This document shows positions 13,235 to 32,707 of a DNA stretch of 50,563 bases, piece after piece. A model generated the notes under the pieces. That model was not told the DNA's origin. It did no database searches and saw only the letters and a program-made list of their open reading frames with translations. The DNA lies in the NCBI RefSeq assembly GCF_902459655.1, contig NZ_CABPSB010000028.1, positions 1-50,563 on the forward strand. Reading direction: 5' to 3'. Every line of letters starts with the position of its first letter. The stretch's first letter is position 1. Origin of the DNA: Pandoraea anhela. Lineage in GTDB: Bacteria; Pseudomonadota; Gammaproteobacteria; Burkholderiales; Burkholderiaceae. A program made the position numbers and the translations under genes.

Positions 13235-13277
13235 ATTCGCCGTCTTCCACACTGCATTCAAGCGCAATGTTCCTGAA

Positions 13278-15128: not shown

Positions 15129-15262
15129 TCGCCGAGTACCGATCCGCAAGGCGCGTCTGTCGCCTCACCGACGACCGACGCGCCGCCGCACCAATGTAAT
15201 GCATGTTGCAGCTTGGAACGCTACGCCCTCCCCGCTAAGGCATGCCGTCGTGCCACATCGCG

Positions 15263-15302
15263 AAAGGCCTCGAATCGATGCACCAGTCGATTCGGGGCCT
15301 TT
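15263..15302 (+). terminator. Terminator after trpE
   Basis: A 16-bp stem, AAAGGCCTCGAATCGA (15263-15278) with its near-perfect complement at 15287-15302 (one T-G wobble), encloses an 8-base loop and is followed by TGTTGATTT. It closes the trpE transcript before the efflux operon, so trpE and trpG should not share a message. Confidence 0.88.
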
Positions 15303-15404
15303 GTTGATTTAGCACAACCGTTCGCTTTTTTCGACCACTCCGGTATACGCCGATTGACGTCACTCAAGATATAGTTAGGTGTCCGTCGGGAGGTCGAAGC
15401 TTCT

Positions 15405-16991
15405 ATGGCGAAACCATGCAATCCACGTATGCGTTCCGGTATCGCGAATATCCTTGCGATACCTCTAACACCGATTCGGCCCATCACAACCATAGCGGCT
15501 GTGCTGGTCGTGACCGGACTTGGCGGCTGCATATCGATGGCGCCGTCTTACGAGCGCCCTGCCGCCCCCGTGGCCAACGTGTGGTCACCGGATGTGAGCA
15601 CGTTACCGGCCACCGCTGCCGCGCAACCGGCTTCCGCGCTCGATTGGCGCGAGTATTTCGCCGATCCGCAACTACGCAGCCTTATCGAAACCGCGCTCGC
15701 CAATAACCGCGATCTGCGCGTTGCCCTGGCCCGCGTAGAACAGTCGCGAGCGGTGTATGGCATTCAGCGCGCCGATCTGTTTCCTGCGGTGGGTGTCGGG
15801 GCGAGCGGAACACGGCAGCGTCTGCCGGGCGATCTGAGCCTCACCGGCAACCCCTACATCAGCAGCCAGTATCAGGTGGGGCTCGGCCTGTCCACCTGGG
15901 AACTCGACTTCTGGGGGCGCATCCGCAATCTGAAGGATGCCGCACTCGACGATTATCTGGCGTCCGATGCATCTCGCCGCGCACTCGAACTGAGCCTGAT
16001 CTCGCAAGTCGCGCAAACATGGCTGAGCCTGCGCGAATACGACGAGCGCATTGCGTTGGCGCAACAGACCGTCGACAGCCGCGCCGAGTCGCTACGGATT
16101 TTCACGCGACGCGAGCAAGTCGGCTCGACATCCAAACTCGACCTCACCGAAGTCACCACGCTCTGGCAACAGGCACGCGCGCTCGTCACGCAACTCGAAC
16201 AACAGCGCGCCACCCAGGCCCACGCCTTGCAGGTGCTCGTGGGCGTGCCCATCGACACCTCCCCGCAGGCGCTCGACCGCATGGCCGACGATGCGAGCCT
16301 GATGCGCGATCTCGACCCCGGCCTGCCATCGTCGCTGCTGGAAGACCGCCCCGACATCATCGCGGCCGAGTATCAACTGCGCGCGGCGCACGCGAACATC
16401 GGCGCGGCGCGTGCGGCGTTCTTCCCGCAGATCACGCTGACAGGCTCCGTCGGCACCGCGAGCAGCGCGCTCGATGGTCTGTTCAAGGCAGGCAGCGCCG
16501 CGTGGACGTTCACCCCGAGCATCAGTATTCCGATCTTTCAGGGCGGACGTCTCGTGAACAACCTCGACCTGGCCGAGGCGCGTCGTATCGAGTCGGTCGC
16601 GAACTACGAGAAAACGATTCAGAGCGCATTTCGCGATGTCGCGGACGCCCTGAGCGCACGCCGCTGGCTGGCCGATCAGGTCACGATTCTGCAAGCGACG
16701 CAAGACGCACAAGCCGAGCGCGCACGCCTTGCGAAACTGCGGTACGACCACGGTGCGGCCGCTTTCCTCGAGGTGCTCGACGCGCAGCGCGACCTCCTCG
16801 CCATCGAACAACAAACGGTCCAGACGCGCCGCGCATTGCTGTCCGCACGCGTGGCGCTTTACACGGCGCTGGGCGGCGGCAGCCGCCTCATGCCCGCCGC
16901 CGACGCGCCGGCCGGCCCGTTCGCGCGCACGCCACGCGTCGTCGAACCGACGCCGCCGGCATCTCCCGCCTCGGCCCAGACCGTCCAATAA
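15405..16991 (+). CDS. Outer membrane efflux lipoprotein, NodT/OprM family
   Basis: 528-residue TolC-like outer-membrane channel of the RND/ABC efflux outer-membrane factor family. The signal ends in lipobox VTGLGGC with lipidated C42; an internal ATG at codon 9 is an alternative start. Two repeated OEP domains follow: the first runs roughly through SADLAD-like [33 protein letters not shown] and the second through [46 protein letters not shown] lies about 10 bases before the chosen ATG. It heads a four-gene run with an adaptor and two ABC components, implying a complete tripartite exporter. Confidence 0.92.
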
Positions 16992-17010
16992 ATTCAAAAG
17001 GTCAACGAAC

Positions 17011-18084
17011 ATGACGCTCCCTAAAGCGAAGCAACTCGTGCCGGCCCTGATCGTGCTCGCGGTGATCGGGCTGGGTTGGTACGCATGGAAGACGTACAGC
17101 AACACCGGCCCCGGCGACGGTTTCGCCAGCGGCAACGGGCGTATCGAGGCGACCGAAGTCGATATCGCGACCAAGATGGCCGGACGTGTCGACGCCATCT
17201 ACGTGCGCGAAGGCGACTTCGTGAAGGCCGGTCAGGTGCTCGCCAAGATGCAGATCGACACCCTAACGGCACAACGCGACGAAGCGCGGGCCCAATATCA
17301 GCAGGCCGTGACCAACGTCGCCGCAATTCAGGCGCAGGCCGCCGCGCGGCTGTCGGACAAGGCGACTGCCGAGGCAAACGTCGCCGCGCGCGAAGCCGAA
17401 CTCGACGCCGCCCAGCGGCGTCTGTCACGCTCGGAAACGCTCTCGAAGGAAGGCGCCTCGTCGGTGCAGGAACTGGACGACGACCGCGCCCGCGTGCGCA
17501 GCACACGGGCCGCCGTCACCGCCGCCCGCGCGCAGGTCGCGGCGGCCCAGTCGGCCGTGGAAGCGGCGAACGCGCAAGTCACCGGCTCGAAGTCGACGGT
17601 CGAAGCCGCACAGGCGACCATCGCGCGTATCGAAGCCGACATCGCCGACAGCGAACTGAAAGCCCCGCGCGACGGCCGAGTGCAGTATCGCGTCGCGCAA
17701 CCGGGCGAAGTGCTGGCAGCCGGTGGCAAGGTGCTCAACCTCGTCGACCTGTCGGACGTGTACATGACGTTCTTCCTGCCCGAAGCCGTTGCGGGACGCC
17801 TCGCCATGGGCGCCGAGGCCCGCATCGTGCTCGACGCCGCGCCGCAGTTCGTCATCCCGGCGAGCATCTCGTTCGTCTCCAGCACCGCGCAGTTCACGCC
17901 GAAGACCGTGGAGACGGAGAGCGAGCGTCAGAAGCTGATGTTCCGCGTGCGCGCACAGATCGCGCCGGAATTGCTGCAACAGCATCTGAAGCTCGTGAAG
18001 ACCGGTCTGCCCGGCGTGGCGTGGGTGAAGACCGACAGCAAGGCCGAATGGCCGGCCCAGTTGCAGACGAAGCTCCCGCAGTGA
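17011..18084 (+). CDS. HlyD-family periplasmic adaptor protein (YhiI-like)
   Basis: 357-residue membrane-fusion protein linking an inner-membrane ABC exporter to the outer-membrane channel. It has one N-terminal membrane helix (about residues 9-25), lipoyl half-motifs at [34 protein letters not shown] and [26 protein letters not shown], and between them a long Ala-rich coiled coil rich in Arg and Glu. The start at 17011 follows AAAAGG and begins 19 bases after the outer-membrane gene. The next gene begins 10 bases after its stop. YhiI of E. coli, encoded next to rbbA, is the closest family member known to me. Confidence 0.9.
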
Positions 18085-18094
18085 GCCGCGCATC

Positions 18095-20875
18095 ATGACG
18101 GCGACTCCGGCCCCTCCCGATCACCGTGCCCCGCCCCCCGGGCATGGCGTGCCGCCTGTCGTTCATGTGGTCGACGTCACACTGACGTACGGTCGCAAGA
18201 CAGTGGCGCTCGACAACGTGGCGATCGACATTCCGGCGAACCGCATGGTCGGGCTGATCGGGCCGGACGGTGTCGGCAAATCGACGCTGCTTTCGCTGAT
18301 CGCCGGTGCCCGTGCGGTGCAGACGGGCGTGGTCGAAGCGCTGGGCGGCGACATGGCGAGCAAGGCGCACCGCGACCTCGTTTGCCCGCGCATCGCTTAC
18401 ATGCCGCAAGGGTTGGGCAAGAACCTCTATCCCACGCTCTCCGTCGAGGAGAATCTGCAATTCTTCGCGCGACTGTTCGGTCACGACGCCGCCGAGCGTC
18501 GCCGTCGCATCGACGATCTCACGCGCAGCACCGGCCTGCATCCGTTCCTGGACCGCCCGGCCGGCAAGCTCTCGGGCGGCATGAAGCAGAAGCTCGGCCT
18601 GTGCTGCGCGCTGATTCACGATCCGGACCTCCTGATTCTCGACGAGCCGACCACCGGCGTGGACCCGCTCGCCCGCGCGCAATTCTGGGATCTGATCGCG
18701 CGCATCCGGCGCGAGCGTCCGGCCATGAGCGTGATCGTCGCCACGGCGTATATGGACGAAGCGCAGCGCTTCGACTGGCTCGTCGCCATGGACGCCGGCA
18801 AGGTGCTCGCCACCGGCACACCGGCCGAACTGCTCGCGCGTACGCATCGCGATAACCTCGAAGCAGCCTTTATCGATCTGCTGCCGGAGGAAAAGAAGCG
18901 TGGCTACGAGCCGGTCGTGATCCCGCCGTTGCATATCGACGAACACACGGAGATCGCCATCGAAGCCAAGGGGCTGACAATGCGCTTCGGCGATTTCGTC
19001 GCGGTCGATCACGTGGATTTCCGCATTCGTCGCGGCGAAATCTTCGGCTTCCTCGGCTCGAACGGCTGCGGCAAGTCCACCACGATGAAGATGCTCACGG
19101 GCTTGCTTCAGGCAAGCGAGGGACAGGCGTGGCTGTTCGGTCACGAAGTCGACCCGAAGGACATCGACACCCGACGCCGCGTGGGCTACATGTCGCAGGC
19201 GTTCTCGCTCTACACCGAACTGACGGTGCACCAGAACCTCGTGTTGCACGCGCGCCTGTTCCATGTGCCGGAAGTGGAAGTCGATGCCCGCGTCGCGGAA
19301 ATGGTGCAGCGTTTCGATCTTGCCGAGGTCATCGACGCCCTGCCCGACAGCATTCCGCTCGGCATGCGTCAGCGCCTCTCGCTGGCGGTGGCGATGGTCC
19401 ACAAGCCCGAGTTGCTGATTCTCGACGAGCCGACATCGGGCGTCGATCCGGTGGCGCGCGACAACTTCTGGCGCCTGCTGGTCGAACTCTCGCGCCGCGA
19501 CCGCGTGACGATCTTCATCTCCACGCACTTCATGAACGAGGCCGACCGCTGCGACCGCATCTCGCTGATGCACGCCGGGCGCGTACTCGTCTCCGATCCG
19601 CCCGCGAAGATCACCCGGGACAAAGGGGCAGACACGCTCGAGCAGGCGTTCATCGAATACCTCGTGGAAGCGGGTGGCGGCACGCCCGAAGCCCCGGAGA
19701 CGCCCAAGTCGGACACCCCGCCCGTCGAGGCCGCCCATGCGACGCACAGGGGCTTCTCGCTGAGCCGCATGATCAGCTACCTCTGGCGCGAGACGCTGGA
19801 GTTGCAGCGCGACCCGGTGCGCGCCACGCTCGCACTCGTCGGCTCGCTCGTGCTCATGCTCGTGATGGGCTACGGCATCAGCATGGACGTCGAAGACCTG
19901 CGCTACGCCGTACTCGATCGCGACCAGACGACCCTGAGCCAGAACTATGCGCTCAACATCGCCGGCTCGCGCTATTTCATCGAGCAGGCGCCGATCACCG
20001 ACTACGACGACATGGACCGTCGGCTACGCGCCGGCGAACTGGCGCTGGCCATCGAGATTCCGCCGGGCTTCGCGCGCGACGTCGCACGTGGCAAGGCCGT
20101 GCAGATCGGCGCCTGGATCGACGGCGCGATGCCGATGCGCGCGGAAACCGTGCAAGGCTACGTGCAGGGCATGCATCAGAACTGGCTTGCGGATCAGTCG
20201 TTGCGCCGGCTCGGCGTGAAGCCCACGGCGTCGCTCGATATCGAGACGCGCTACCGCTACAACCCCGACGTGAAGAGTCTGCCCTCCATGGTGCCGGCCG
20301 TGATCCCGCTGCTCCTGCTGATGCTGCCCGCCATGCTCACCGCGCTGTCGGTCGTGCGCGAGAAGGAGTTGGGGTCGATCCTGAACCTGTACGTCACGCC
20401 GGTCACGCGCACGGAATTCCTGATCGGCAAGCAGATTCCGTACGTGGCGCTCGCCATGCTCAACTTCCTGCTCATGGCGCTGATCGCCGTGACGCTCTTC
20501 GGCGTGCCTATCAAGGGAAGTTTTCTGACGCTCATCACCGCCGTGTTCATTTTCAACGTGGTCGCCACGGGCATCGGCCTGCTCGCGTCCACCTTTACCC
20601 GCAGCCAGATCGCGGCCCTGTTCTTCACGATGATCGGCACGATGATTCCGGTGATCCAGTTCTCCGGGATGATCACGCCGGTGCCGTCGATGGAAGGCTC
20701 GGGCCGGTTCATCGGCGAGATCTATCCGGCGACTTACATGCTGATCATCAGCCGGGGCGTGTTCAACAAGGCGCTCGGCTTCGGTGATCTCGGCAACGCC
20801 TTCTGGCCGATGCTCGTCGCCGTGCCCGTGATTCTGGGCACCACGATCCTGCTGCTCAAGAAACAGGACAAGTGA
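18095..20875 (+). CDS. rbbA: RbbA-like ABC transporter: two ATPase domains fused to a permease
   Basis: 926-residue fusion. The first ATPase has Walker [10 protein letters not shown] at 56-64, signature [11 protein letters not shown] and Walker [14 protein letters not shown]. The second has Walker [11 protein letters not shown], a changed signature ([12 protein letters not shown]) and Walker [14 protein letters not shown]. The C-terminal third is an ABC-2 permease with one early helix, a large extracytoplasmic loop and five later helices. This is the architecture of E. coli RbbA/YhiH, reported as ribosome-associated but encoded with exporter parts. Here the neighbours make a role in drug or solute export likely. 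Its stop overlaps the next start. Confidence 0.92.
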
Positions 20876-22089
20876 TGGTCAGCCCGAGCACACCGAACGC
20901 CTCTGCCCCGACGGCGCCCACCTCACCCGCAAGCGCCGCGCCGCCGCACCGCCGGCATCCGTGGCTGCGCCACCTCGCGAACATCTACCGGCTCGGTGTG
21001 AAGGAGCTTTGGAGCCTCGCGCGCGACCCGATGATGCTCGTACTCATCATCTACACATTCACGGCTTCGGTGTACTCGGCCGCGACCGCACAACCCGATA
21101 CGCTGCATCTGGCGCCCATCGCCATCGTGGACGAAGACGCCTCGCCGCTCTCGCAACGCATCGTCTCGGCGTTCTATCCGCCGCAATTCAGCATGCCGCA
21201 GATGATCACGGCGGACGCCGTTGACCGGGGAATGGACGAAGGGGCGTACACCTTCGCACTGAACATTCCGCCGAACTTCCAGCGCGACATACTGGCCGGC
21301 CGCGCGGCCGAAGTGCAGCTCAACGTGGACGCCACGCGCATGAGTCAGGCGTTCTCCGGCAGCGGCTACGTGCAGCAGATCGTGTCGGCGGAAGTGCGCG
21401 AATTCCTCCAGCGATACCGGGCAACGGCCGAGCTTCCCGTCGATCTCGCACTGCGTGTGCGCTTCAACCCGACGCTGGAGCGCGCGTGGTTCGGCTCGCT
21501 CATGCAGATCATCAACAACATCACCATGCTGTCGATCATCCTCACGGGCGCGGCGCTCATCCGCGAGCGAGAGCACGGCACCATCGAGCACTTGCTCGTC
21601 ATGCCGGTGACACCGTCCGAGATCATGCTGGCGAAAGTCTGGTCGATGGGACTGGTGGTGCTGATCGCGGCCGCCATGTCGCTGTGGCTGATCGTGAGCG
21701 GCGCGCTGCACGTGCCGATCGGCGGCTCGGTGGCGCTGTTCCTGCTCGGTGCGACGTTGCATTTGTTTGCGACCACCTCGATGGGGATCTTCCTCGCGAC
21801 GCTCGCGCGCTCGATGCCGCAGTTCGGCATGCTGCTGATTCTGGTGCTACTGCCGCTGCAAATGCTCTCGGGCGGGAACACGCCGCGCGAGAGCATGCCG
21901 AAGCTGGTGCAGGACGTCATGCTCGCCGCGCCCACGACACACTTCGTCGAACTGGGTCAGGCAATTCTGTTTCGTGGCGCCGGGATCGGCGTCGTGTGGG
22001 TGCAGTTCGTGGCGCTCGCCGCCATCGGTGCGGTGTTCTTCGCCGTTTCGCTGCGGCGTTTTCGACGCACGCTCAGTTCGATGGCGTAG
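20875..22089 (+). CDS. ABC-2 type permease (YhhJ-like)
   Basis: 404-residue inner-membrane permease. One helix lies near residues 45-70 (DPMMLVLIIYTFTASVYSA), then a roughly 150-residue periplasmic domain, then five helices including ITMLSIILTGAALIREREHGTIEHLLVMPVTP, the typical ABC-2 motif. The ATG at 20875 shares one base with the stop of the RbbA-like gene (TGATG), so they are probably coupled. It supplies the second membrane half of the exporter, as YhhJ does beside RbbA in E. coli. Confidence 0.9.
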   Translation: MVSPSTPNASAPTAPTSPASAAPPHRRHPWLRHLANIYRLGVKELWSLARDPMMLVLIIYTFTASVYSAATAQPDTLHLAPIAIVDEDASPLSQRIVSAFYPPQFSMPQMITADAVDRGMDEGAYTFALNIPPNFQRDILAGRAAEVQLNVDATRMSQAFSGSGYVQQIVSAEVREFLQRYRATAELPVDLALRVRFNPTLERAWFGSLMQIINNITMLSIILTGAALIREREHGTIEHLLVMPVTPSEIMLAKVWSMGLVVLIAAAMSLWLIVSGALHVPIGGSVALFLLGATLHLFATTSMGIFLATLARSMPQFGMLLILVLLPLQMLSGGNTPRESMPKLVQDVMLAAPTTHFVELGQAILFRGAGIGVVWVQFVALAAIGAVFFAVSLRRFRRTLSSMA

Positions 22090-22191
22090 CGTCTGTCGCG
22101 CCCGGTGGATTGGCCGGTCTACGGCCCAAACGCCGCCCCTGGTGCGGCGCCTGCGATGTTTTGCAACGCGTACGACGCTTGCGACATTTCC

Positions 22192-22218
22192 GTCGTTCAC
22201 GTCATTCACGTCATTCGC
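22192..22218. repeat. Three tandem 9-base repeats
   Basis: GTCGTTCAC, GTCATTCAC and GTCATTCGC occur in a row in the 200-base gap between the permease gene and the DUF3141 gene. No function is evident. Confidence 0.75.
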
Positions 22219-22289
22219 GCCCGGCATGCCAGTCACGCCGTGCCGGGCGTTCGCCAACGCTGTCATGCCGGATCTGAGAGGTCATTACC

Positions 22290-24710
22290 ATGCCTGCCAA
22301 ATCGTCCGCCGCACTCGAACGCAACGCTTCCCGACGCGCGAGCGCGTCCACGCCAGCCGCCCCCGCCGGCAACGCACCGTGGCTCGCCGCCAATCCGTGG
22401 CTGGCCAACCTGCCATGGATGGCGGCCGCCGCCGAATACGCCGTCGACGCGTGGCAGCGCAGCGTGCTGTTCGCCGATGTCATGCGTCAGCGCGGCAATC
22501 AGTATCAGGCGCATCTGGCCGAGTCCGCGCCGAACGTGCTGGACTTCGCCTCGGAAGTGATCCTCGACGGACACGAACTGCAGCGCCCCTGCAACTACAG
22601 CCTGATGCGCATTCTGCCGCTCGAGGACACGCCGACGCAGCCCAACGCACGGCCGTTCGTCGTCGTCGACCCCCGCGCCGGACACGGCCCGGGCATCGGG
22701 GGCTTCAAGCCCGACAGCGAAATCGGCGCGGCGCTGCGTGCCGGACATCCCTGCTATTTCGTCGGCTTCCTGCCCGATCCGGTGCCGGGACAGACGGTGG
22801 AAGACGTCATGCGCGCGGAAGCGGCCTTTCTCGAGAAGGTGATTTCGCTGCACCCGGAAAGCGCAGGCAAACCGGCCGTCATCGGCAACTGTCAGGCCGG
22901 GTGGCAGATCCTGATGACGGCAGCGATGCGTCCGGAGCTGTTCGGACCGATCATCGTCGCCGGCGCGCCGCTGTCCTATTGGGCAGGCTGGCGCGGGCGC
23001 AACCCCATGCGTTACTCGGGTGGACTGCTCGGCGGCAGTTGGTTGACGGCGCTCACGAGCGACCTCGGCGACGGCCGGTTCGACGGCGCGTGGCTGGTCG
23101 AGAACTTCGAAAACCTCGATCCGGCGAACACGTTGTGGCGCAAGAAATACCACCTGTACGCCAACGTCGACACCGAGGCGCCGCGCTATCTCGGTTTCGA
23201 GAAATACTGGGGCGGACATGTTTTCCTGAATGCGCAGGAGATGCAGTACATCGTCGACAACCTCTTCGTGGGCAACCGGCTCACGAGCGCGGAGCTCATT
23301 ACGAGCGACGGCATTCGCCTCGACCTGCGCAACATCCGCTCGCCCATCGTCGTGTTCTGCTCGTACGGCGACAACATCACGCCGCCACCACAGGCGCTCG
23401 GCTTCATCACCGACATGTACCGCGACGACGCCGAGGTGCTCAGTCACGATCAGACCATCGTGTACGCCACGCACGACAGCATCGGCCACCTCGGCATCTT
23501 CGTCTCGGGCAGCACAGGCCGTAAGGAACATCGCAAGTTCGTCAACAACATCGATCTGATCGACGTGCTGCCCGCCGGGATCTATCAGGCGCAGATCGCC
23601 GACAAGACCGACGACACGCTGCACGGTGAACTGGCGGACGGCGATTACGTGATGTCGATTCAGCGACGCAGTGTGGAGGACGTGCGCGCCATCGTGCAGC
23701 CGGATACCGAGAGCGACCGGCGTTTCGCGGCGGTCGCCCATCTGTCGGACATTCACCTCGGCCTGTATCGCAGCCTCGTGCAGCCCTGGGTGCGCGCGGC
23801 AGTGACGCCGACGTCCGCCTACTGGATGCGTCTGCTCCATCCGTTGCGCGTGAGCTACGAGCTGTGGTCGGATCGCAATCCGTTCGCCGTGCCGTTCGCG
23901 CAAAAGGCGGAGCGCGTGCGGTCGTCGCGTCATCCGGTGTCTGCCGACAACCCGTTCCTCGCGCTGGAGACGGCCGTCTCGACGGCCATCGAACAGTCGC
24001 TGAATTTCTATCGCGACGTGCGCGACGACGGTTATGAGAAGGCGTTCGAGCTGATTTACGGTCAGCCGTGGGTGCAGGCGCTGGCGGGACTGCACGGCAG
24101 CGACGGCGCGGCGGTGCGCGTGCACCCGGGCACGTCGCCGGAGCACGTGGCGTTCGTGAAGGAGGCGCTGGCGCGCCGGCGTCACGAATTGCATGAGGGC
24201 GGCGTGCTCGAAGCGGGGATTCGCGCGCTGTTGTGGGTGCATCGCCTGCATGGCGAAGCGGACGAGCGTCAGTTCAATCTCGCGCGCTCGCTGCCGCGCG
24301 GCGACGCCGAGATTTCCATCGAGCGGTTCCGCGAAATCATCCGGCGTCAGGCCGGGTTGCTGCGCATGGCGCCCGATGCCGCGATGGCGGCGATTCCCGA
24401 CATGTTGGCCCAGGCGTCGCCCGAGCCTATCCGTCTGGTGGCGAAGGCTGTCAGAGAGTTGAGCTTCGCCGTGCCGTTGCAGGACGGCGAGCAAAACGAC
24501 CTGGAACGCGTGCTCAGCGTGTTCGAACACGCGGCGCAGAAGCGGCAAGCCGAAGCCGGCGGCGGCGCGAAACCGCGTGCGCGCCCGACACGTGCTGCCG
24601 CGAGCCGCAAGGCTGCAACACCCGAAACACCCGCCGCCCCGACGCGCAAGCGTGCAGCGGCGGCGAAAAGGGCAGGCGTCGCAGCGGGGAAAGGGATGAA
24701 GGCGGGATGA
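22290..24710 (+). CDS. DUF3141 protein, PHA-synthase-like alpha/beta hydrolase
   Basis: 806-residue member of the DUF3141 family. The alpha/beta-hydrolase core resembles PhaC polyhydroxyalkanoate synthase: the nucleophile elbow is VIGNCQAGW with C201, and the remaining triad residues are likely D361 in CSYGDNITPP and H400 in DSIGHLGIFVSG. Polymerase activity is not established for this family. From about residue 745 the protein ends in an Ala/Arg/Lys/Pro tail (RAAASRKAATPETPAAPTRKR) like histone H1 or PhaF tails, which may bind DNA or a granule surface. GAGAGG precedes the ATG. It follows the efflux operon by 200 bases. The stop codon lies in an 11-base tandem repeat. Confidence 0.85.
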   Translation: MPAKSSAALERNASRRASASTPAAPAGNAPWLAANPWLANLPWMAAAAEYAVDAWQRSVLFADVMRQRGNQYQAHLAESAPNVLDFASEVILDGHELQRPCNYSLMRILPLEDTPTQPNARPFVVVDPRAGHGPGIGGFKPDSEIGAALRAGHPCYFVGFLPDPVPGQTVEDVMRAEAAFLEKVISLHPESAGKPAVIGNCQAGWQILMTAAMRPELFGPIIVAGAPLSYWAGWRGRNPMRYSGGLLGGSWLTALTSDLGDGRFDGAWLVENFENLDPANTLWRKKYHLYANVDTEAPRYLGFEKYWGGHVFLNAQEMQYIVDNLFVGNRLTSAELITSDGIRLDLRNIRSPIVVFCSYGDNITPPPQALGFITDMYRDDAEVLSHDQTIVYATHDSIGHLGIFVSGSTGRKEHRKFVNNIDLIDVLPAGIYQAQIADKTDDTLHGELADGDYVMSIQRRSVEDVRAIVQPDTESDRRFAAVAHLSDIHLGLYRSLVQPWVRAAVTPTSAYWMRLLHPLRVSYELWSDRNPFAVPFAQKAERVRSSRHPVSADNPFLALETAVSTAIEQSLNFYRDVRDDGYEKAFELIYGQPWVQALAGLHGSDGAAVRVHPGTSPEHVAFVKEALARRRHELHEGGVLEAGIRALLWVHRLHGEADERQFNLARSLPRGDAEISIERFREIIRRQAGLLRMAPDAAMAAIPDMLAQASPEPIRLVAKAVRELSFAVPLQDGEQNDLERVLSVFEHAAQKRQAEAGGGAKPRARPTRAAASRKAATPETPAAPTRKRAAAAKRAGVAAGKGMKAG

Positions 24711-24725
24711 AGGCGGGATGAAAGC
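24693..24725. repeat. Three tandem 11-base repeats over a stop codon
   Basis: GGGATGAAGGC, GGGATGAAGGC and GGGATGAAAGC run across the end of the DUF3141 gene; its TGA (24708-24710) lies in the second copy. Because 11 is not a multiple of three, gain or loss of a copy changes the reading frame at the C-terminus. Confidence 0.85.
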
Positions 24726-24772
24726 CATCAAATCGACGAAGACAAAGACGAAGGAGACGACCTGAGGGCGAT

Positions 24773-24800
24773 GCGGCGCTGACGCGCGGTTCGGCGCCGC
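24773..24800. terminator. GC-rich hairpin in convergent gap
   Basis: GCGGCGC (24773-24779) pairs with GCGCCGC (24794-24800) across a 14-base loop, between the convergent DUF3141 and histidine kinase genes. There is no U run, so termination is only suggested by position. Confidence 0.35.
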
Positions 24801-24807
24801 CATCGTG

Positions 24808-26169
24808 CTATCCATTGCCGCTGACGGCGCCAGCGCCTGCGGCAACACCGGCAGGCACATACAACCGCGCCAGCAAACCGCCGCCCTCGCGCGGCGCGAA
24901 CTCCAACTGCGCATCGAACCGTCTCGCGATCGCCTGCACGATGGAAATTCCCAGACCCGCGCCCTCACCCTGCTGGCGTCGCTGATCGCCGCGCCAGAAT
25001 CGTTGTCCGAGTCTCGCCGTTTGCTCGGGCGCCAGCCCCGGCCCCCGATCGCCCACTTCGATGCAGTAGCGACGATTTGTCTCATCGGCGTGCACAGTCA
25101 GCGTGATCTCGCTGTCGGCGGGGGAGTATCGCATCGCATTGTCGACGATGTTCCTCACCGCCGTGCCGAGCATCGAGCGCGGCAACACCGAGCCGCTGTC
25201 CACACCCGCCATCCGGAAGACGAACCGGTCCGTGTCGCCCCATTCGCTCAGCACGTCGTCGATCACACTGCCGACCGACTCGCATTTGTCCTGTGCATGC
25301 ACCGGCGCTTCGGCCTGCGCCAGCGTCATCAGTTGATCGAGCGTGTGCCGCAAACGCCTCACCCCCGCGCCGGCCTGCTGCAACGCAAGCTTCGACGCGC
25401 GCCCATCGGTCATCTCCGCTACCTGCAAATGCGTATCGATGGCGGTGAGCGGCGTGCGCAGTTCGTGGGCCGCACCGTCGGTGAACGCCCGCTGGCCCGC
25501 CAGCGTCGTCGCCAGACGCTCCAGCCATGCGTTCAGTGCGCCGACAACCGGCTGCAACTCGGTCGGCGCGCGGCCGATATCGACGGGTGTCGTATCGTCG
25601 GTCCTTTTGCGACGCAGCGCGGCGCGCAAGCGCTCCAACGGCTGAAGTCCGCGTCCGATGCCGATCCACAGCGCGAGCAGGCCACCCACCACCGCAATCA
25701 GGAACGGCACGCCCGCCGCGCGCAGCATGTCGCGCGTGAGCACCGCGCGCCGGTCCACGCGGTCGGCTGTCATCACCTGATAGCCGCCTGCGTCCTGCAA
25801 CACATAAATGCGCCAGCGCCGGCCGTCGATCTCGCGCGTGCTGAAGCCGGTTGGCAACGCGAGCGACGACGATTGCGGCCCACCATCGGTATGCGCGAGC
25901 ACCGCGCCCTGCAACGAGCGGATCTCGCAGGCGATGCCGTCGCTCGCCCCCGTGCGGATCACGTCCCCCCAATCCCGCGTCTCCGTGTGAGGCGAGAACG
26001 CCGCGCGCGCCATCAACCCGGAGACCATCGTCGCCGACATTGCGAGACGTTCGTCGAGCGCATCGTCCAGGCTTGCGCGAACCCCGCGCATCATCCAGCC
26101 CGCCGCCGCCATCCACAACACGATCAGCGCCACGCCGGCAATCAGCACCGCCCGCAGTCGAAGACTCAT
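24808..26169 (-). CDS. Two-component sensor histidine kinase
   Basis: 453-residue inner-membrane sensor kinase resembling the QseC/PmrB group. Two membrane helices (about 7-29 and 152-172) enclose a periplasmic sensor of about 120 residues without a recognised ligand motif. A short HAMP-like linker leads to the H-box GAAHELRTPLTAI with phospho-acceptor H235; the ATPase core shows NIVDNAMRYSP, GDRGPGLAPEQ and GAGLGISIVQ. The ATG at 26169 overlaps the response-regulator stop as ATGA, so it is the second gene of a coupled pair. An in-frame Met four codons earlier is a less likely start. Signal unknown. Confidence 0.92.
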   Translation of the reverse strand: MSLRLRAVLIAGVALIVLWMAAAGWMMRGVRASLDDALDERLAMSATMVSGLMARAAFSPHTETRDWGDVIRTGASDGIACEIRSLQGAVLAHTDGGPQSSSLALPTGFSTREIDGRRWRIYVLQDAGGYQVMTADRVDRRAVLTRDMLRAAGVPFLIAVVGGLLALWIGIGRGLQPLERLRAALRRKRTDDTTPVDIGRAPTELQPVVGALNAWLERLATTLAGQRAFTDGAAHELRTPLTAIDTHLQVAEMTDGRASKLALQQAGAGVRRLRHTLDQLMTLAQAEAPVHAQDKCESVGSVIDDVLSEWGDTDRFVFRMAGVDSGSVLPRSMLGTAVRNIVDNAMRYSPADSEITLTVHADETNRRYCIEVGDRGPGLAPEQTARLGQRFWRGDQRRQQGEGAGLGISIVQAIARRFDAQLEFAPREGGGLLARLYVPAGVAAGAGAVSGNG

Positions 26170-26831
26170 GACAAGCTCCATCCCAACCGGTAGCCGAGGC
26201 CACGTGCAGTTTGAATGGCGTCGCCCCCCAGCTTGCGACGCACGTTGTGAATATGCACGTTCAGCACATTGCTGTTGACGCGCTCGGTCATGCCATACAG
26301 GCGTACGTGCAGCATGTCGGGCGACAGCCAGCGCCCCCGGCTGCTCGCGAGATAGGCGAGCAGGTCGACTTCGCGGCGGGAGAGTTCGACGGGCGCGCCG
26401 TCGAGCCATGCAAGGCCGCTCGCCGGGTCGAGACGCAACGGCCCGGCTTCGATGACCTGCGCCGCACGGCCGTTCGTGCGCCGCACCAGCGCATGCAATC
26501 GCGCCGCCAGCTCGCGCAGGTCGAACGGCTTGACCATGTAATCGTCGGCGCCCGCATTAAGGCCCGCGATGCGATGCTCGATACCGTCGCGCGCAGTGAG
26601 GATCAGCACGGGCACGTCCGGCTCGACCGCGCGCACGCTGGCAATGATGTCCAGACCGTCGCCATCGGGCAAACCGAGATCGAGCACGAGCGCGTCGAAC
26701 GTGTTTTCCGCGTGTGCGGCAATCGCCGCTTCACCGCAGGCGCTCGCTTCGACGTGAATTCCCAAAGTCGAGAGCCCCGCGACGATGCCGCTCGCAATCA
26801 GAGGATCGTCCTCTACCAGCAGTACTCGCAT
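26166..26831 (-). CDS. OmpR/PhoB-family response regulator
   Basis: 221-residue transcriptional regulator. The receiver domain (1-115) has the acidic pair in VEDDP, phospho-acceptor D51 in VLDLGLPDGDG, T in LTARD and K in MVKPFD. The C-terminal winged helix includes LSRREVDLLAYL and SNVLNVHIHNVRRKLG. MRVLLVED at 26831 is chosen because AAGAGGCG lies upstream; the open frame extends 12 codons further without support. It is first in the pair with the kinase and divergent from dsbD, so the dsbD-tlpA-dsbG genes are a plausible target. Confidence 0.93.
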   Translation of the reverse strand: MRVLLVEDDPLIASGIVAGLSTLGIHVEASACGEAAIAAHAENTFDALVLDLGLPDGDGLDIIASVRAVEPDVPVLILTARDGIEHRIAGLNAGADDYMVKPFDLRELAARLHALVRRTNGRAAQVIEAGPLRLDPASGLAWLDGAPVELSRREVDLLAYLASSRGRWLSPDMLHVRLYGMTERVNSNVLNVHIHNVRRKLGGDAIQTARGLGYRLGWSLS

Positions 26832-26989
26832 TGATGCACGCCTCTTGTCGACTGTTGTACGCACCATGACATGTTACGTATTTCGTGAATTCGGGTGATA
26901 CGCCGTTGCTCGCCCGGTCGCGCGTTAACTCTCAATTAATCGTCCTCGGCCACGCTCTGTCTCGCTTCGACTGATTCAGGGAGGACAGA
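26832..26989. promoter_or_regulatory. Divergent promoter region, response regulator / dsbD
   Basis: 158 bases, AT-richer than the flanks (for example TTACGTATTTCGTGAATTCG near 26874 and TTAACTCTCAATTAAT near 26925-26940). It must carry both promoters. Direct repeats suited to an OmpR-family regulator were not confidently identified. AGGGAGGA at 26978-26985 is the dsbD ribosome site. Confidence 0.45.
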
Positions 26990-28933
26990 TTGGTACGTCG
27001 AATCGTTTTCATCTTTGTGATTTTGCTTGGCGCGTTTGGTGCGCTTCGCGTCACCCCGGCCCTCGCCGCGCTGCCGTGGCAATCCGGCACGCAGGTGCTC
27101 GAAGCGTCTCAGGTGCTGCGTCTGGAGCCCCCTCGCCATGAGGACGGCGGCATCACCATCGGCAGCAAGATTGCTAAGGACCACTATGTTTATCGCCACT
27201 CGCTGCGCGTGGAAGACGATGCAGGCAATCCGGTCGCGGTGACGTTGTCCGACGGCACGCGCCATTCCGACGAATTCTTCGGCGAATCGGAGATCTACTA
27301 TGACGTCGATCTGCTGCTGAAGTTGCCGGCGCTCAAGTCGAAGTACGCCGTGCTTCACTGGCAGGGCTGCGCGCAGGCAGGCATTTGTTATCCGCCGCAG
27401 ACCATCAGGATTACGCTGCCCGACACCGCCTCTGCGGCCACGTCGGACGAGCCCGCGCCGGCATCCGCCGCCCCGCTCCCGGAGACACCCGAGGCCGATG
27501 CCCCGGCTGCTGCGGCCACGGCGCAGAACGATGCTGCCGGCGAAACGCCGCTGGCGGCCGATCAGGAGACGGCCAGAAAGCTCGCCACGCTCGATCCCAT
27601 CACGGCCAAGTTGCTGTTCTTCGGGCTTGGGCTCATGCTGACTTTCACGCCCTGCGTGCTGCCGATGATTCCGATCGTCTCGACGATGATCGTGGGCAAT
27701 CGCCCGTCGCCGATGCGGGCGCTGGGCCTGTCGTCGGCTTACGTTCTGACGATGGCGCTCACCTATGCGAGCGTGGGCGTGGCTGCCGCGCTCGCGGGCG
27801 CGAATCTGCAAGCCACGCTGCAAGCGCCGTGGCTGCTGAGCGCGTTCGCCGCGTTGTTTCTGGTACTTGCGGCGTCGTTGTTCGGGCTGTTCGAGATTCG
27901 CTTGCCGTCGTTCATCGTGAATCGGCTGGATGCTGCCGGACGTCAACGCACCGGCGGCAGTGTGTTCGGCGCCGCCGCGCTGGGCTTTCTGTCCGCGTTG
28001 CTCGTCGGCCCCTGCATGACCGCACCGCTCGCGGGCGCCCTGCTCTACATCAGCCAGACCGGCAATGCGTGGATGGGCGGTGGCGCGCTCTTCGCGATGG
28101 GCCTCGGCATGGGGACACCGCTGCTCGCGATTGCGCTGTTCGGGGCGCGCATTCTGCCGCGTCCGGGAGCGTGGATGGTGCGTGTGCGTATCGCGTTCGC
28201 CTACGTCATGGTCGGTATGGCCGTGATGATGCTGAGCCGCTTCCTGCCGGGGCACGTCAGCCTCGCGATGTGGGGCGCCCTCGGCCTCGGACTGGCCGTT
28301 GGCGTCGCCGGCTGGGCATGGGCGATTCGCGGCAAAACGGCCGGCTGGGCGCTGGTTTTCCTGGCGACGCTGACCGGCCTGTGGTCGGTCATGCTCCTCG
28401 TGGGGGCGGCGGCCGGCAGCGACTCGCTGATGCGGCCGTTGGCCCAGGCGAATATCGGCAACGGCGGGGGCCGAGGCGGGCCCGAAGCGGCCGGGGAACG
28501 AAAGACGGGACCGGTCGATTACGTGAGCGTCAAATCGGCGCAGGATGTGGACGCGCGCATCGCACAGGCCGCCGCCAAAGGGCAATGGACGCTCATCGAC
28601 TTCTATGCCGACTGGTGCGTGAGTTGCCATGTCATCGAGCGCAACGTGTTCGCCAATCCGGCCGTCGCCGCGCGCCTCGCGCAAATGCAGGTGCTGCGAC
28701 CGGACGTCACGAAAAACGACCCCGTCGACCAGGCACTGATGAAGCGGTGGGGCGTGATGGGGCCGCCCACGCTCATTCTCGTCGACGCCACGGGCAAGGA
28801 GGTTCGCGAGCACCGCATGGTCGGCGAGATGAGCGTGGCGGCGTTCCTCGGTCGTCTCGATGCGGCGCACATGGCGCACAGGGCGCGGCAGTCCCCGGAG
28901 ACACCCGAGGCGCAGGAGGCGCAGACGTCATGA
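26990..28933 (+). CDS. dsbD: Thiol:disulfide interchange protein DsbD
   Basis: 647-residue inner-membrane protein carrying electrons from cytoplasmic thioredoxin to periplasmic DsbC/DsbG and TlpA-like proteins. After a signal peptide (about 1-26) the alpha domain has C127 and C133 in GCAQAGICYPP; an Ala/Pro linker leads to eight membrane helices with the redox pair C222 (FTPCVLPMIP) and C342 (LVGPCMTAPL); the C-terminal thioredoxin domain has C543-V-S-C546 in YADWCVSC. All six cysteines are present. Translation most likely begins at TTG (26990), 5 bases after GGAGG, the only start giving a full signal peptide. It overlaps the tlpA-like gene as ATGA. Confidence 0.94.
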   Translation: MVRRIVFIFVILLGAFGALRVTPALAALPWQSGTQVLEASQVLRLEPPRHEDGGITIGSKIAKDHYVYRHSLRVEDDAGNPVAVTLSDGTRHSDEFFGESEIYYDVDLLLKLPALKSKYAVLHWQGCAQAGICYPPQTIRITLPDTASAATSDEPAPASAAPLPETPEADAPAAAATAQNDAAGETPLAADQETARKLATLDPITAKLLFFGLGLMLTFTPCVLPMIPIVSTMIVGNRPSPMRALGLSSAYVLTMALTYASVGVAAALAGANLQATLQAPWLLSAFAALFLVLAASLFGLFEIRLPSFIVNRLDAAGRQRTGGSVFGAAALGFLSALLVGPCMTAPLAGALLYISQTGNAWMGGGALFAMGLGMGTPLLAIALFGARILPRPGAWMVRVRIAFAYVMVGMAVMMLSRFLPGHVSLAMWGALGLGLAVGVAGWAWAIRGKTAGWALVFLATLTGLWSVMLLVGAAAGSDSLMRPLAQANIGNGGGRGGPEAAGERKTGPVDYVSVKSAQDVDARIAQAAAKGQWTLIDFYADWCVSCHVIERNVFANPAVAARLAQMQVLRPDVTKNDPVDQALMKRWGVMGPPTLILVDATGKEVREHRMVGEMSVAAFLGRLDAAHMAHRARQSPETPEAQEAQTS

Positions 28934-29745
28934 TCGGACTCGGCCCTTTCCCGATGAAAACGGCCGCCCTCGTGTCGGCGGCGGTGCTCGCGTGGATCGT
29001 TGCACGCTATGTGCTGCGCAGCGCGGACGCCGCATCGCGTCGCGCCGCCGCGAGCGTGCTGTTCGACGCGCTGGCGCTTGGGCTGCTCACCGCGCGTGTC
29101 GTCTACGTGCTGCGCTGGTGGCCCGACTACGCAGCGGCACCGGCGTCGATCATCGCCATCGGCGACGGTGGCTTCGACGTGTGGGCCGGCATTCTCGCTG
29201 CGCTGGCTTGGGCCTACTGGCGTACGCGCCAAAGGCCGGCGCAACGACGCCCGATGTTCGCCGGCATGGCCGTCGGACTGGCGATCTGGGGCGTGATGCA
29301 GGTCGGTCTGACCTTCATGCTTCGCGAGGCGCCGCCCTTGCCCACGCTCACCCTCACGGACATCGCCGGTCGGCCGGTGCCGCTGGAGCGGTATCGCGGC
29401 AAGCCCATCGTGATGAATCTGTGGGCGAGCTGGTGCCCGCCCTGCCGTCGTGAAATGCCCGTGCTGGCGCAAGCGCAGGCGGACTATCCGGAGGTACGGT
29501 TCCTGATGATCAACCAGGGCGAGGCGGCCCCCACGGTCGAGACGTTCGTGAAGTCGCAGGGACTGGCGTTCGATCACCTGCTGCTCGATCCCGAGTCGCA
29601 GACCATGCGCGCCGCCGAGACGCGCGCCCTGCCCACCACGTTGTACTTCGATACCAACGGCCGTCTGGTCGATGCCCATCTGGGCGAGCTGACCGCTGCG
29701 CGTCTGCGTGACACGCTGCACGGCCGACTCAAGCAAACCCCTTGA
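28930..29745 (+). CDS. TlpA-like thioredoxin fused to an Lgt-like membrane domain
   Basis: 271-residue inner-membrane protein. The N-terminal 130 residues carry several membrane helices; the stretch GLLTARVVYVLRWWPDYAAAPASIIAIGDGGFDVWAGIL resembles the early part of prolipoprotein diacylglyceryl transferase (Lgt), without its later catalytic parts. The C-terminal half is a TlpA/ResA thioredoxin with WASWCPPC, redox cysteines C169 and C172, and cis-Pro in ALPTT. It probably acts as a periplasmic thiol reductant fed by DsbD, with which it overlaps by four bases. dsbG follows after 47 bases. Lgt activity is not expected. Confidence 0.88.
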   Translation: MIGLGPFPMKTAALVSAAVLAWIVARYVLRSADAASRRAAASVLFDALALGLLTARVVYVLRWWPDYAAAPASIIAIGDGGFDVWAGILAALAWAYWRTRQRPAQRRPMFAGMAVGLAIWGVMQVGLTFMLREAPPLPTLTLTDIAGRPVPLERYRGKPIVMNLWASWCPPCRREMPVLAQAQADYPEVRFLMINQGEAAPTVETFVKSQGLAFDHLLLDPESQTMRAAETRALPTTLYFDTNGRLVDAHLGELTAARLRDTLHGRLKQTP

Positions 29746-29792
29746 CCCGCCCCGCCACCTCTTAGGCATCTTCCCTCTCCAAGGAGTCATTC

Positions 29793-30620
29793 ATGTCGGT
29801 TCGCAAGCGTCTCGCTTTCATCCTCGGCCCAATCACCGCACTCGCCCTCTCGACACCCGGCGTCGCAGCCGATGCAGCCCCCCCGGCATCCGCGGCAGCG
29901 CCCGGCGCCCCCGCCGCGGCGTCATCGCCGAAGCCCGCTATCCTGCAAGCACTGGCGCGCGAAGGCGTCACAGGGTTACAACCGTTCGACACGGGGACCC
30001 GGGACCTGAGCGGCTTCGCAGGACTTGCCGGCCAGCAGCCCGTGGCCGTCTATGTGCTGCCCGACGGCAACGGCATCGTCGGCACCCGCATCGGTGCGGA
30101 CGGCAAGCCGCTGGATGTCGAGCGCGTAACTCATCTGATCGAGAAGCCGCTGGGCGACGCGATCTGGTCGAAACTCTCGGCTTCCACCTGGGTGCTGGAC
30201 GGCAAGCAGGACGCGCCGCGCATCGTCTATACCTTCAGCGACCCGAACTGCCCGTACTGCAATCGCTTCTGGGAATCGGCACGCCCGTGGGTCGATGCCG
30301 GCAAGGTCCAGTTGCGGCACGTGCTCGTGGGGGTGATCAAGGCCGACAGCGTGACGAAGGCGGCCGCCATTCTCGGCGCCTCGAACCCGTCTGCCGCGCT
30401 CTTGCAGAACGAGCAGAAGTTCAAGCAAGGCGGCATCAAGCCGGCTCGCAGCGTGACGAAAGCCATCGCGCAGAAGCTCCAGACCAACCAGATGCTCATG
30501 GCCGAACTCGGCTTCCGGGGCACCCCGGGCATCATCTATCGCAACGACAAGGGCATTGTGGAGCGCGCCAACGGCATGCCGCCGCCGGATGCGCTCACGA
30601 CCATTCTCGGCGCGCGCTAA
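29793..30620 (+). CDS. dsbG: Thiol:disulfide interchange protein DsbG
   Basis: 275-residue periplasmic DsbC/DsbG-family protein. A signal peptide (about 1-25) and an Ala/Pro stretch precede a small dimerisation region; the thioredoxin-fold domain has C153-P-Y-C156 in SDPNCPYCNRFW and the cis-Pro loop GTPGII. DsbG keeps single protein cysteines reduced, drawing electrons from DsbD, which is encoded two genes upstream. AAGGAG sits just before the ATG. A separate DsbC-type protein is encoded at 42870-43631. Confidence 0.9.
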   Translation: MSVRKRLAFILGPITALALSTPGVAADAAPPASAAAPGAPAAASSPKPAILQALAREGVTGLQPFDTGTRDLSGFAGLAGQQPVAVYVLPDGNGIVGTRIGADGKPLDVERVTHLIEKPLGDAIWSKLSASTWVLDGKQDAPRIVYTFSDPNCPYCNRFWESARPWVDAGKVQLRHVLVGVIKADSVTKAAAILGASNPSAALLQNEQKFKQGGIKPARSVTKAIAQKLQTNQMLMAELGFRGTPGIIYRNDKGIVERANGMPPPDALTTILGAR

Positions 30621-30643
30621 GCGCGACACACGCCAGGGGGGGT

Positions 30644-30669
30644 CCGGGCGGCCCCGTGGGGTCGCCCGG
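30644..30669 (+). terminator. GC-rich hairpin after dsbG
   Basis: CCGGGCG (30644-30650) and CGCCCGG (30663-30669) pair around GC-rich inner sequence 24 bases after the dsbG stop. No U tract follows, so it is only a candidate terminator or transcript end stabiliser. Confidence 0.4.
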
Positions 30670-30816
30670 CGGCCATCCGCCCCCAGCCTGCGTTGCAGAA
30701 TCGTCGACTGGCCGACACGGCAACGCGCAAATTATTGCGAGAAACGGGCGGATGACGCGCAAAATACGCCGAATGACCGCTTTTTGCGACACGCGTCCAC
30801 GACCCGGCGCAGATGC

Positions 30817-30825
30817 TGCTACAAT
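30817..30825 (+). promoter_or_regulatory. Extended -10 promoter of trpGDC
   Basis: TGCTACAAT is an extended -10 element (TGn then TACAAT at 30820-30825). No good -35 box sits 17 bases upstream, as is usual for extended -10 promoters. The start of transcription would fall at about 30832-30835, on or next to the ATG of the leader peptide, which would make that message nearly leaderless. Confidence 0.55.
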
Positions 30826-30834
30826 CGCCTCACT

Positions 30835-30903
30835 ATGAAGTCGCATCAGTCTTCCTCCCTCCTCTGGTCGCCCCTGACCGCTGCCCTGCGCTGGTGGCGG
30901 TAA
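30835..30903 (+). CDS. Trp-rich leader peptide upstream of trpG
   Basis: 22-codon frame from ATG to TAA with tryptophan at residue 11 and a tandem pair at 20-21 (it ends LRWWR). GTGGCGG (30894-30900), overlapping the two TGG codons, pairs perfectly with CCGCCAC (30905-30911) around the TAAC loop containing the stop codon. A ribosome stalled at the Trp pair would melt this stem, as in attenuation. There is no ribosome site, fitting a leaderless message. Recognised only from Trp content and position before trpG; chance is not excluded. Confidence 0.6.
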   Translation: MKSHQSSSLLWSPLTAALRWWR

Positions 30904-30979
30904 CCCGCCACGTCTATCTCATCCCCATAGCGCCCTCCCCCGCGGACCGCGAAGTCAATGTGGGGGCACGCTCAGGGGA
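30894..30979 (+). promoter_or_regulatory. trpG leader RNA structures
   Basis: The 7-bp stem at 30894-30911 overlaps the tandem Trp codons. Downstream, TCCCC (30922-30926), GCG (30930-30932) and CCCCC (30937-30941) can pair with GGGGG (30962-30966), CGC (30969-30971) and GGGGA (30975-30979) to form a long imperfect stem between the leader peptide and trpG. No U run follows. It may be an attenuator or a structure limiting access to trpG. Confidence 0.5.
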
Positions 30980-31035
30980 CACTCGCAAATTCCACGCGTT
31001 CGACAACCTTTGTCACCAGACGAACAGAGACCATC

Positions 31036-31623
31036 ATGCTGCTGATGATCGACAACTACGACTCGTTTACCTACAACATCGTCCAGTACTTCGGTGAACT
31101 GGGCGAAGACGTCCGGGTCTTCCGCAACGACGAAATCACGCTCGACGCGATTGCCGCGTTAGCCCCCGAGCGTATCTGCCTCTCGCCCGGCCCAAGCTGC
31201 CCGGCCAACGCCGGCATTACCCTGGACGTGCTCAGGCGCTTTGCCGGCGAGATCCCGATTCTGGGCGTGTGCCTCGGCCATCAGGCCATCGGCGAAGCCT
31301 TCGGTGGGAACGTGGTTCGCGCTCAACAGATCATGCACGGCAAAGTGAGCGAGATCGAAACCACGCAACAGGGCGTGTTCGCGAATCTGCCCAAGCGCTT
31401 TACCGTCACGCGTTATCACTCGCTCGCCATCGAGCGCGCGTCGCTGCCCGAATGCCTCGAAGTCACCGCCTGGACGGACGACGGCGAGATCATGGGCGTG
31501 CGGCACAAGACGCTCGACGTCGAAGGCGTGCAATTCCACCCCGAGTCGATTCTGTCGGAGCATGGCCACGCCGTGCTGCGCAACTTCCTGCAAGCGGCGC
31601 CGCGCACCGCCATCGCCGCCTGA
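31036..31623 (+). CDS. trpG: Anthranilate synthase component II (glutamine amidotransferase)
   Basis: 195-residue class-I glutamine amidotransferase that hydrolyses glutamine and passes ammonia to TrpE. The triad is visible: C79 in GVCLGHQ, H168 and E170 in VQFHPES. The N-terminal [19 protein letters not shown] is characteristic; the start at 31036 follows from it, although its ribosome site is weak. In PabA-type proteins the same fold serves folate synthesis, but trpD and trpC directly downstream fix the role. Its partner trpE is about 15.9 kb upstream. Confidence 0.96.
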
Positions 31624-31678
31624 TGGCGTCCGTCGATATCACGGAACCAGCCCACACCGACAGAGGAGAAGACGACCA

Positions 31679-32707
31679 ATGATTACCCCGCAAGAAGCGC
31701 TTCAGCGCACGATCGAACACCGCGAAATTTTCCACGACGAGATGCTGCATCTGATGCGTCTCATCATGAAAGGCGAGATTTCGCCGGTCATGTCGGCCGC
31801 CATCATCACCGGCCTGCGTGTGAAGAAGGAAACCATCGGCGAGATCGCCGCCGCCGCGCAGGTCATGCGCGAGTTCGCGAATCATGTCGACGCGCCGTCC
31901 GATGAGCATTTCGTCGACATCGTGGGCACTGGCGGCGATGTGTCGCATACGTTCAACATCTCTACGGCGTCGATGTTCGTGGCGGCCGGCGCGGGCGCAA
32001 AGGTCGCCAAGCACGGCAACCGTGGCGTGAGTTCGAAGTCGGGCAGCGCAGATGTGCTCGAAGCCCTCGGCGTGAACATCATGCTCAGCCCCGAGCAGGT
32101 GGCCGAGTGCCTCGGCGCCGTGGGCATCGGCTTCATGTTTGCACCGAACCATCACCCGGCGATGAAGAACGTGGCGGCCATCCGCAAGGAGATGGGCGTG
32201 CGCACGATCTTCAACATTCTCGGCCCGCTCACGAACCCGGCCGGCGCGCCGAATCAGTTGATGGGCGTGTTCCACCCGGATCTGGTGGGGATTCAGGTGC
32301 GCGTGATGGAGCGCCTCGGGGCAGAACACGTGCTCGTGGTCTACGGCAAGGACGGCATGGACGAGGTCTCGCTCGGCGCCGCTACGCTCGTGGGCGAACT
32401 CAAGGACGGCAAGGTCACCGAGTACGAAATTCACCCGGAAGACTTCGGCTTGCAGATGGTGAGCAACCGCAGCCTGAAGGTCGGCAGCGCCGAGGAATCG
32501 AAGACGATGCTGATCGAAGCGCTCGACAACACGGTGGGCGTCGCCCGCGAGATCGTGACGCTCAACGCCGGCACCGCGCTGTATGCGGCCAACCGCGCCG
32601 CGTCGATCGGCGACGGGATCGAGATGGCGCGCGAGTCCATCGCCAGCGGCGCAGCGCGCGACAAACTCCACGAATTCGTCACATTCACGCAGCGCTTCAA
32701 GGCCTAA
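31679..32707 (+). CDS. trpD: Anthranilate phosphoribosyltransferase
   Basis: 342-residue enzyme joining anthranilate to phosphoribosyl pyrophosphate. The PRPP-binding signature GTGGD is at 83-87, followed by FNISTAS and [21 protein letters not shown] (111-131), which bind both substrates; NILGPLTNP and DEVSLG complete the family pattern. GAGGAG lies upstream of the chosen ATG. It starts 55 bases after trpG and is followed by trpC. Confidence 0.97.

Follow-up and report, generated by a model that had tools for sequence, protein, structure and literature searches.

How the parts of a split operon are kept in step is an old question, and it is raised by the tryptophan biosynthetic genes of Pandoraea anhela. 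In the stretch of DNA analyzed here (50,563 nt, hereafter the window), trpE (13623-15128) lies on the same strand as trpG (31036-31623, + strand) and 15.9 kb upstream of it, trpG being the first gene of a presumed controlled operon trpG-trpD-trpC. The interval between dsbG and trpG contains, in this order, the sequence TGCTACAAT, a short Trp-bearing open reading frame (ORF), a perfect 7-bp stem and a longer imperfect stem. A first-pass annotation of this interval had proposed a possibly leaderless Trp leader peptide, which together with an unlike leader before trpE would keep the two separated parts of the pathway in step.

A conserved leader ORF behind a presumed promoter of its own

The ORF at 30835-30903 (+ strand), located just before trpG, is translated to MKSHQSSSLLWSPLTAALRWWR followed by a stop codon, and its 22 codons include Trp at position 11 (30865-30867) and a Trp pair at positions 20-21 (30892-30897), precisely as annotated in the first pass. 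It is thus a short ORF with clustered Trp codons preceding a Trp biosynthetic gene on the same strand, this being the arrangement by which leaders of Trp genes are recognized. ORFs of 8 to 60 codons that start with ATG and contain adjacent Trp codons (WW) number three on both strands of the window, the trpG leader included, which corresponds to an expectation of approximately 0.006 per 200 nt; because of this low expectation and the intactness of the frame in 26/26 genomes, the ORF is considered to be more than a chance occurrence.

Among 32 Pandoraea genomes placed, window included, the leader is intact in 26, replaced by an unrelated leader in one (G004), and absent from five (G003, G015, G024, G025 and G029), in which trpE lies 9 to 89 nt from trpG with no room for, or sign of, a leader. 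The frame is free of indels in every one of the 26 genomes that possess the corresponding DNA, and both the Trp pair and the additional Trp codon at position 11 are invariant among them, in line with the expected conservation of the WW codons; a broken frame within conserved DNA, named by the first-pass annotation as one of two observations that would refute its reading, was encountered in none of these 26. The longest invariant run of the leader across the 26 genomes amounts to 32 nt and encompasses the Trp pair, the stop codon and the stem, the longest such runs in trpE and trpG being 17 and 26 nt, respectively. Invariant columns of the ORF are distributed evenly over codon positions 1, 2 and 3 (18, 19 and 19 of 23), with amino acid changes mostly confined to codons 4-8, while in the 26 leader-bearing genomes fourfold sites are invariant at 12/82 positions of trpG and 32/256 of trpE. 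Because all codon positions are equally invariant, as opposed to the few invariant fourfold sites in trpG and trpE, a constraint at the RNA level on top of that on the peptide is indicated, and the block extending from the promoter to the second stem is, judged by its alignment, under constraint at the RNA level at least. Conservation alone does not prove translation, since third codon positions have no surplus of substitutions. A pattern search of 398 genomes across the family, with two mismatches allowed, lacked the stringency to be informative; among the matches listed, those with zero mismatches were all from Pandoraea.

The presumed trpG promoter consists of the extended -10 element TGCTACAAT (30817-30825, + strand), which is separated from the leader ATG by 9 nt in the window, confirming that the ORF lies directly behind it. 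The sequence CTGCTACAATC is invariant in 26/26 genomes as compared to 8 of the 29 columns directly upstream, and the spacing between the element and the ATG is 9-10 nt in all 26 Pandoraea leaders; a transcription start 7 nt past the hexamer would leave a 5’ leader of approximately 3 nt. The promoter-leader block is located downstream of dsbG in 15/26 genomes and of other DNA in 11/26, and because these 11 lack dsbG just upstream, the block is tied to trpG rather than to dsbG. Two unrelated trpG leaders, those of G004 and of a Rhodocyclaceae genome (L147), likewise carry TG-n-TAGAAT 6-7 nt ahead of their ATG. A comparable -10 hexamer was retrieved for 4/26 WW leaders of the Verticiella/Cupriavidus gilardii class discussed below (shuffled mean 0.9, maximum 5) and, by the same test, for none of the six trpE leaders listed. 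The idea that a leaderless start is general to trpG leaders was therefore dropped on account of the 4/26, and the earlier suggestion of a possibly leaderless message is supported by the spacing seen in the 26 Pandoraea leaders, G004 and L147.

A second leader ORF, MFLNKKRSLSVIDRGAWPWRRWSC followed by a stop codon (13267-13341, + strand), precedes trpE. It is a Trp leader peptide of the same pathway and cell, belonging to the Burkholderiaceae type MFLN.KR...WPWRRW, and differs from the trpG leader in that its sequence is unrelated, with no evident likeness between the two; this, together with a promoter conserved in 26/26, supports the notion of a trpG leader that is unrelated to the one before trpE. 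The trpE leader is present in four of the five genomes without a trpG leader as well as in outgroups, G003 having a different Trp-bearing ORF at that position, and it is considered to be the older of the two because it also occurs where trpE and trpG are joined and in the outgroups. Within 13267-13420, the trpE leader ORF is followed by a GCTGAAG..CTTCAGC hairpin, for which paired changes among relatives were noted by eye, and an internal segment, CAAGAAACGG, is complementary to the downstream CCGTTTCTTG.

Leader RNA structures and their possible mode of action

The Trp pair, the Arg codon and the stop codon of the trpG leader are covered by a hairpin (30894-30911) with the arms GTGGCGG (30894-30900) and CCGCCAC (30905-30911) and a TAAC loop containing the stop codon, which is the perfect 7-bp stem noted in the first pass and which lies within the 32-nt invariant run. 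The longer imperfect stem said to follow it is also present: helix A (30923-30978), a fold prediction in which CCCCATAGCGCCCTCCCCC (30923-30941) pairs with GGGGGCACGCTCAGGGG (30962-30978). An ORF segment, CCCCTGACCGCTGCCC (30871-30886), is predicted to pair alternatively with 30964-30978 (helix B), helices A and B being mutually exclusive in the predicted folding. Folded in full, the leader does only modestly better than shuffled sequences (z -2.2; 3/200 shuffles equally good), and a mean column identity of 94% across the 26 sequences leaves little room for covariation. At gathering scores, Rfam covariance models matched nothing in the window; 30700-31100 gave no match up to an E value of 5, and nine related loci also remained without one.

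The leader is furthermore C-rich and G-poor (30842-30941, + strand), making it a rut-like candidate for Rho loading; such a loading stretch is necessary, and not sufficient, for a Rho-dependent attenuator. Its excess of C over G is reached by 0.019% of 100-nt positions on both window strands, and by 0.29% and 0.064% of window positions when 78 nt and 50 nt are considered. Per 78 nt, this excess is at least 0.24 in each of the 26 leaders, whereas three genomes with joined trpE and trpG have values of 0.10-0.13 upstream of trpG.

Considering these features together, the leader is interpreted as a ribosome-mediated, Trp codon-dependent attenuator of trpGDC that is transcribed from a separate promoter and has a near-leaderless start, a reading to which we assign a probability of about 0.8, and which would very probably raise trpGDC expression when tryptophan is scarce. 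We infer the transcription start, leader translation, ribosome stalling and the Rho step from sequence. The extended -10 promoter would start the RNA at, or a few nucleotides from, the leader ATG, and a ribosome would then translate the 22 codons. When tryptophan is short, the ribosome would stall at W11 or at W20/W21, thereby blocking the hairpin and helix B; the G-rich strand at 30962-30978 would then be free to form helix A, which would hide the C-rich 30923-30941, and polymerase would enter trpG. When tryptophan is plentiful, the ribosome would reach the stop codon and depart, so that the hairpin and helix B could form while the C-rich stretch is open, upon which transcription would be stopped before trpG by Rho or by some other step of pausing or termination. 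The Rho-dependent output is proposed as a guess, to which we give somewhat less than an even chance. The attenuator reading is supported by G004 because its replaced upstream DNA again contains an extended -10 element, an ORF ending in W-R-stop and a hairpin.

In order to compare states of the leader in a folding model, the ribosome footprint was masked on each of the 26 sequences and helix probabilities were computed. With a ribosome masking the ORF, helix A has a probability of approximately 0.7 and helix B of near 0; with no ribosome, the corresponding values are 0.44 and 0.30. Stalling at W11, W20 and W21 (helix A 0.71, 0.69) does not differ from a ribosome at the stop codon (0.69). The model thus separates a ribosome that is present from one that has gone, not a stalled from a finishing one, and because the stall and stop states are alike, a classical switch is not reproduced.

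Intrinsic attenuation is the usual mechanism of Trp leaders, and the strong G+C-rich stem behind the ORF would suit it, with helix A or a later hairpin terminating in the absence of a U-tract and with CCGCCAC or segments of the ORF acting as antiterminator. However, a U-run after helix A is missing from all 26 sequences, and the pairing of CCGCCAC, the 3’ arm of the hairpin, with the G-rich strand, which by eye had seemed a feasible classical antiterminator and was rejected, has a probability of 0.00 in the model. Terminator-like sites in 30000-31800 numbered zero (1.3 in shuffles) in a scan that has no positive control here and was equally blank on the trpE leader and on that of G004. On this evidence intrinsic attenuation is unlikely, at perhaps one chance in four. 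Somewhat less probable still is a translational output, in which the ORF around W11 (CUCUGGUC) would pair over a long range with the trpG ribosome-binding site (approximately 31025-31032). Such pairing turns up in predicted folds, and 25-26 of 26 leaders of the Verticiella family keep UCC paired with GGA at the Shine-Dalgarno sequence, but in Pandoraea the mean pairing of the site is nearly the same across states (0.53-0.58). That the ORF is untranslated, the Trp codons being a by-product of the GGUGGCGG stem within a conserved promoter and structured RNA, would agree with the equal conservation of codon positions and the invariant stem, but is very improbable given that G004, L147, C. gilardii and the Verticiella family have Trp-rich leaders of other sequence before trpG, and that the stem does not include the Trp codon at position 11, which is likewise invariant.

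The coupling proposed for the Pandoraea attenuator has precedents. In TnaC, a ribosome within a short ORF affects Rho-dependent termination. For toiL of topAI, the abstract of PMC12121999 describes an upstream ORF acting via RNA structure and Rho-dependent termination. In these systems, as in the present proposal, a ribosome in a short ORF alters RNA folding and hence Rho termination, whereas their signals are others and the Rho step at trpG is a proposal. An RNA beginning at the ATG of a Trp leader peptide is described in PMC7298713 for Sinorhizobium meliloti trpL (rnTrpL), which in contrast acts on trpE(G), is unrelated in sequence and, according to that paper, includes a transcription terminator.

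Separation of trpE from trpG within Pandoraea

In 23 of the 26 leader genomes, trpE and trpG are located on one contig at a distance of 6 to 16 kb; in G017 they lie on different contigs, the leader being present, and G013 and G016 have kept the leader yet carry trpE approximately 370 nt upstream. The interval between the two genes (15129-30620 in the window) varies from 6 to 28 kb among the 24 genomes in which they are apart on one contig, as if the junction were an insertion hot spot.

Trees were derived from trpE+trpG, from rpoBC with trpE+trpG (29 genomes) and from rpoBC alone. The leader clade is monophyletic with a support of 100 in the first two of these, and the five leader-less genomes with joined trpE and trpG are early-branching in Pandoraea, the basal order being unevenly supported. 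G013 and G016 are nested among split genomes as sister to the split G005, a grouping with a support of 94 (rpoBC with trpE+trpG), 82 (rpoBC alone) and 48 (trpE+trpG). This placement favours, and does not settle, a later loss of the insert in G013 and G016 over a leader that arose before the split. Their trpE at approximately 370 nt weakens the notion of a leader arising strictly after the split.

In G004, where trpE is 28 kb from trpG, homology to its relative G028 ends approximately 10 nt before trpG, trpG itself being 95.9% identical. The DNA upstream contains TGATAGAAT 6 nt ahead of an ATG, followed by the ORF MRNSTRFPSVLLFFGWR with its stop codon, a hairpin over the end of this ORF, and further C-rich and G-rich stems. 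This leader ends in GWR-stop, and because it has a single Trp codon it constitutes weaker evidence of a sensor.

Leaders before trpG in other lineages and their meaning

In the comparison across lineages, a trpG locus counted as split if the preceding 600 nt contained no detected trpE, and a WW leader was defined as an ORF of 7-40 codons starting with ATG or GTG within these 600 nt and having WW in its last eight codons. In the genus of C. gilardii, WW leaders are present at 3/3 split and 0/36 joined loci (39/39 matches examined), and in the family of Verticiella sediminum at 24/26 split and 0/48 joined loci (75/76 matches examined, with one stretch too short to score). Split loci from further genera within the order and the family yielded 1/14. 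Among 80 named loci, WW leaders were found at 5/24 split and 1/55 joined loci, one being too short; the five split loci are two from Pandoraea, C. gilardii, Verticiella and L147, and the joined one, L107, has a GTG frame between its trpE and trpG that is taken for chance. These are raw counts that ignore kinship, from locus sets that overlap slightly (L090 with L162, L116 with L192, and Pandoraea), and L225 and L281 are apparently one genome. Three groups accordingly show a strong link between WW leader and split, which elsewhere is weak or lacking. The proposed parallel evolution of attenuation with the split is therefore upheld in part: the 24/26 versus 0/48 and 3/3 versus 0/36 speak for it, whereas G013, G016 and the lack of WW at most other split loci speak against a strict rule.

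Non-adjacent Trp codons, missed by the WW rule, occur in the leader of L101, MAHYSQAIDLRWRRWR followed by a stop codon. Short Trp-bearing ORFs, each ending in a stop codon, were also observed before trpG at the split loci L230 (G050), L229 (G049) and L224 (G037), namely MKKYQFKMVVNWW, MTFNTLKPDWRWRRA and MPAPLGSLWRW.

The trpG leader RNA of the Verticiella family is well conserved, with a hairpin at WWR(F/S/L)x-stop (L192-L194, L196, L203, L209 and others), and is shared by the C. gilardii loci L090 and L162 and by L163 and L164. The G-C core pairs of a helix formed by GCCGCCGU..CCGG and CCGGCACGGCGGC are kept in 26/26 leaders of this class, and its features suggest translational control. Five loci of the class (L192, L203, L090, L209 and L263) matched no Rfam model up to an E value of 1. 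The TrpG protein of C. gilardii is 86.0-89.8% identical to that of 27 congeners versus 69.4-77.0% to those of the Verticiella-family loci compared, while its leader is 78-80% alike to Verticiella-family leaders over 142 nt and its DNA likeness to two congeners begins at trpG. The leader thus seems to have been imported by a transfer that did not include its gene. Since the older type of trpE leader is retained as well, C. gilardii too has two unlike leaders.

Separate attenuation of trpE and trpGDC is, by the title of a study on Pseudomonas putida (Olekhnovich and Gussin 2001, cited in PMC8297930), known from another lineage in which the two are apart; the likeness concerns that title, not leader sequence. 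Premature 3’ ends at the trpGDC leader of P. aeruginosa are mentioned in a passage of PMC8297930. The earlier proposal of two unlike attenuators for a split pathway is hence borne out as to the unlikeness of the leaders and is not new as an idea. No paper on Pandoraea Trp leader peptides was found among open-licence papers, and none of those retrieved on trpG, trpGDC, or trp attenuation in Bordetella/Ralstonia and Betaproteobacteria was recognized, from titles and the starts of abstracts, as describing this leader. What is new is the lineage, a sequence class with no Rfam match and the comparative pattern, separate attenuation and a leaderless trpL being already known.

Switches of this known kind thus seem to have arisen on more than one occasion at loci in which trpG parted from trpE. 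More tentatively, and with the odds against it, trpG of Burkholderiales, once parted, may be under strong selection for its own Trp leader, acquired via three routes: a new rise in Pandoraea (near-leaderless, U-tract-free and Rho-coupled), replacement in G004 and import in C. gilardii, the leader being a mobile, repeatedly evolved regulatory module by which a broken operon is mended. Should its output be Rho-dependent, the Pandoraea leader would represent an attenuator of Trp biosynthesis that lacks a classical terminator. As a derived leader, it can be placed on the tree, being absent from the five early-branching genomes with joined trpE and trpG, present in 26 and swapped in one, and Pandoraea, the Verticiella family and C. 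gilardii offer natural replicates in which the gain of attenuation may be set against the loss of co-transcription.
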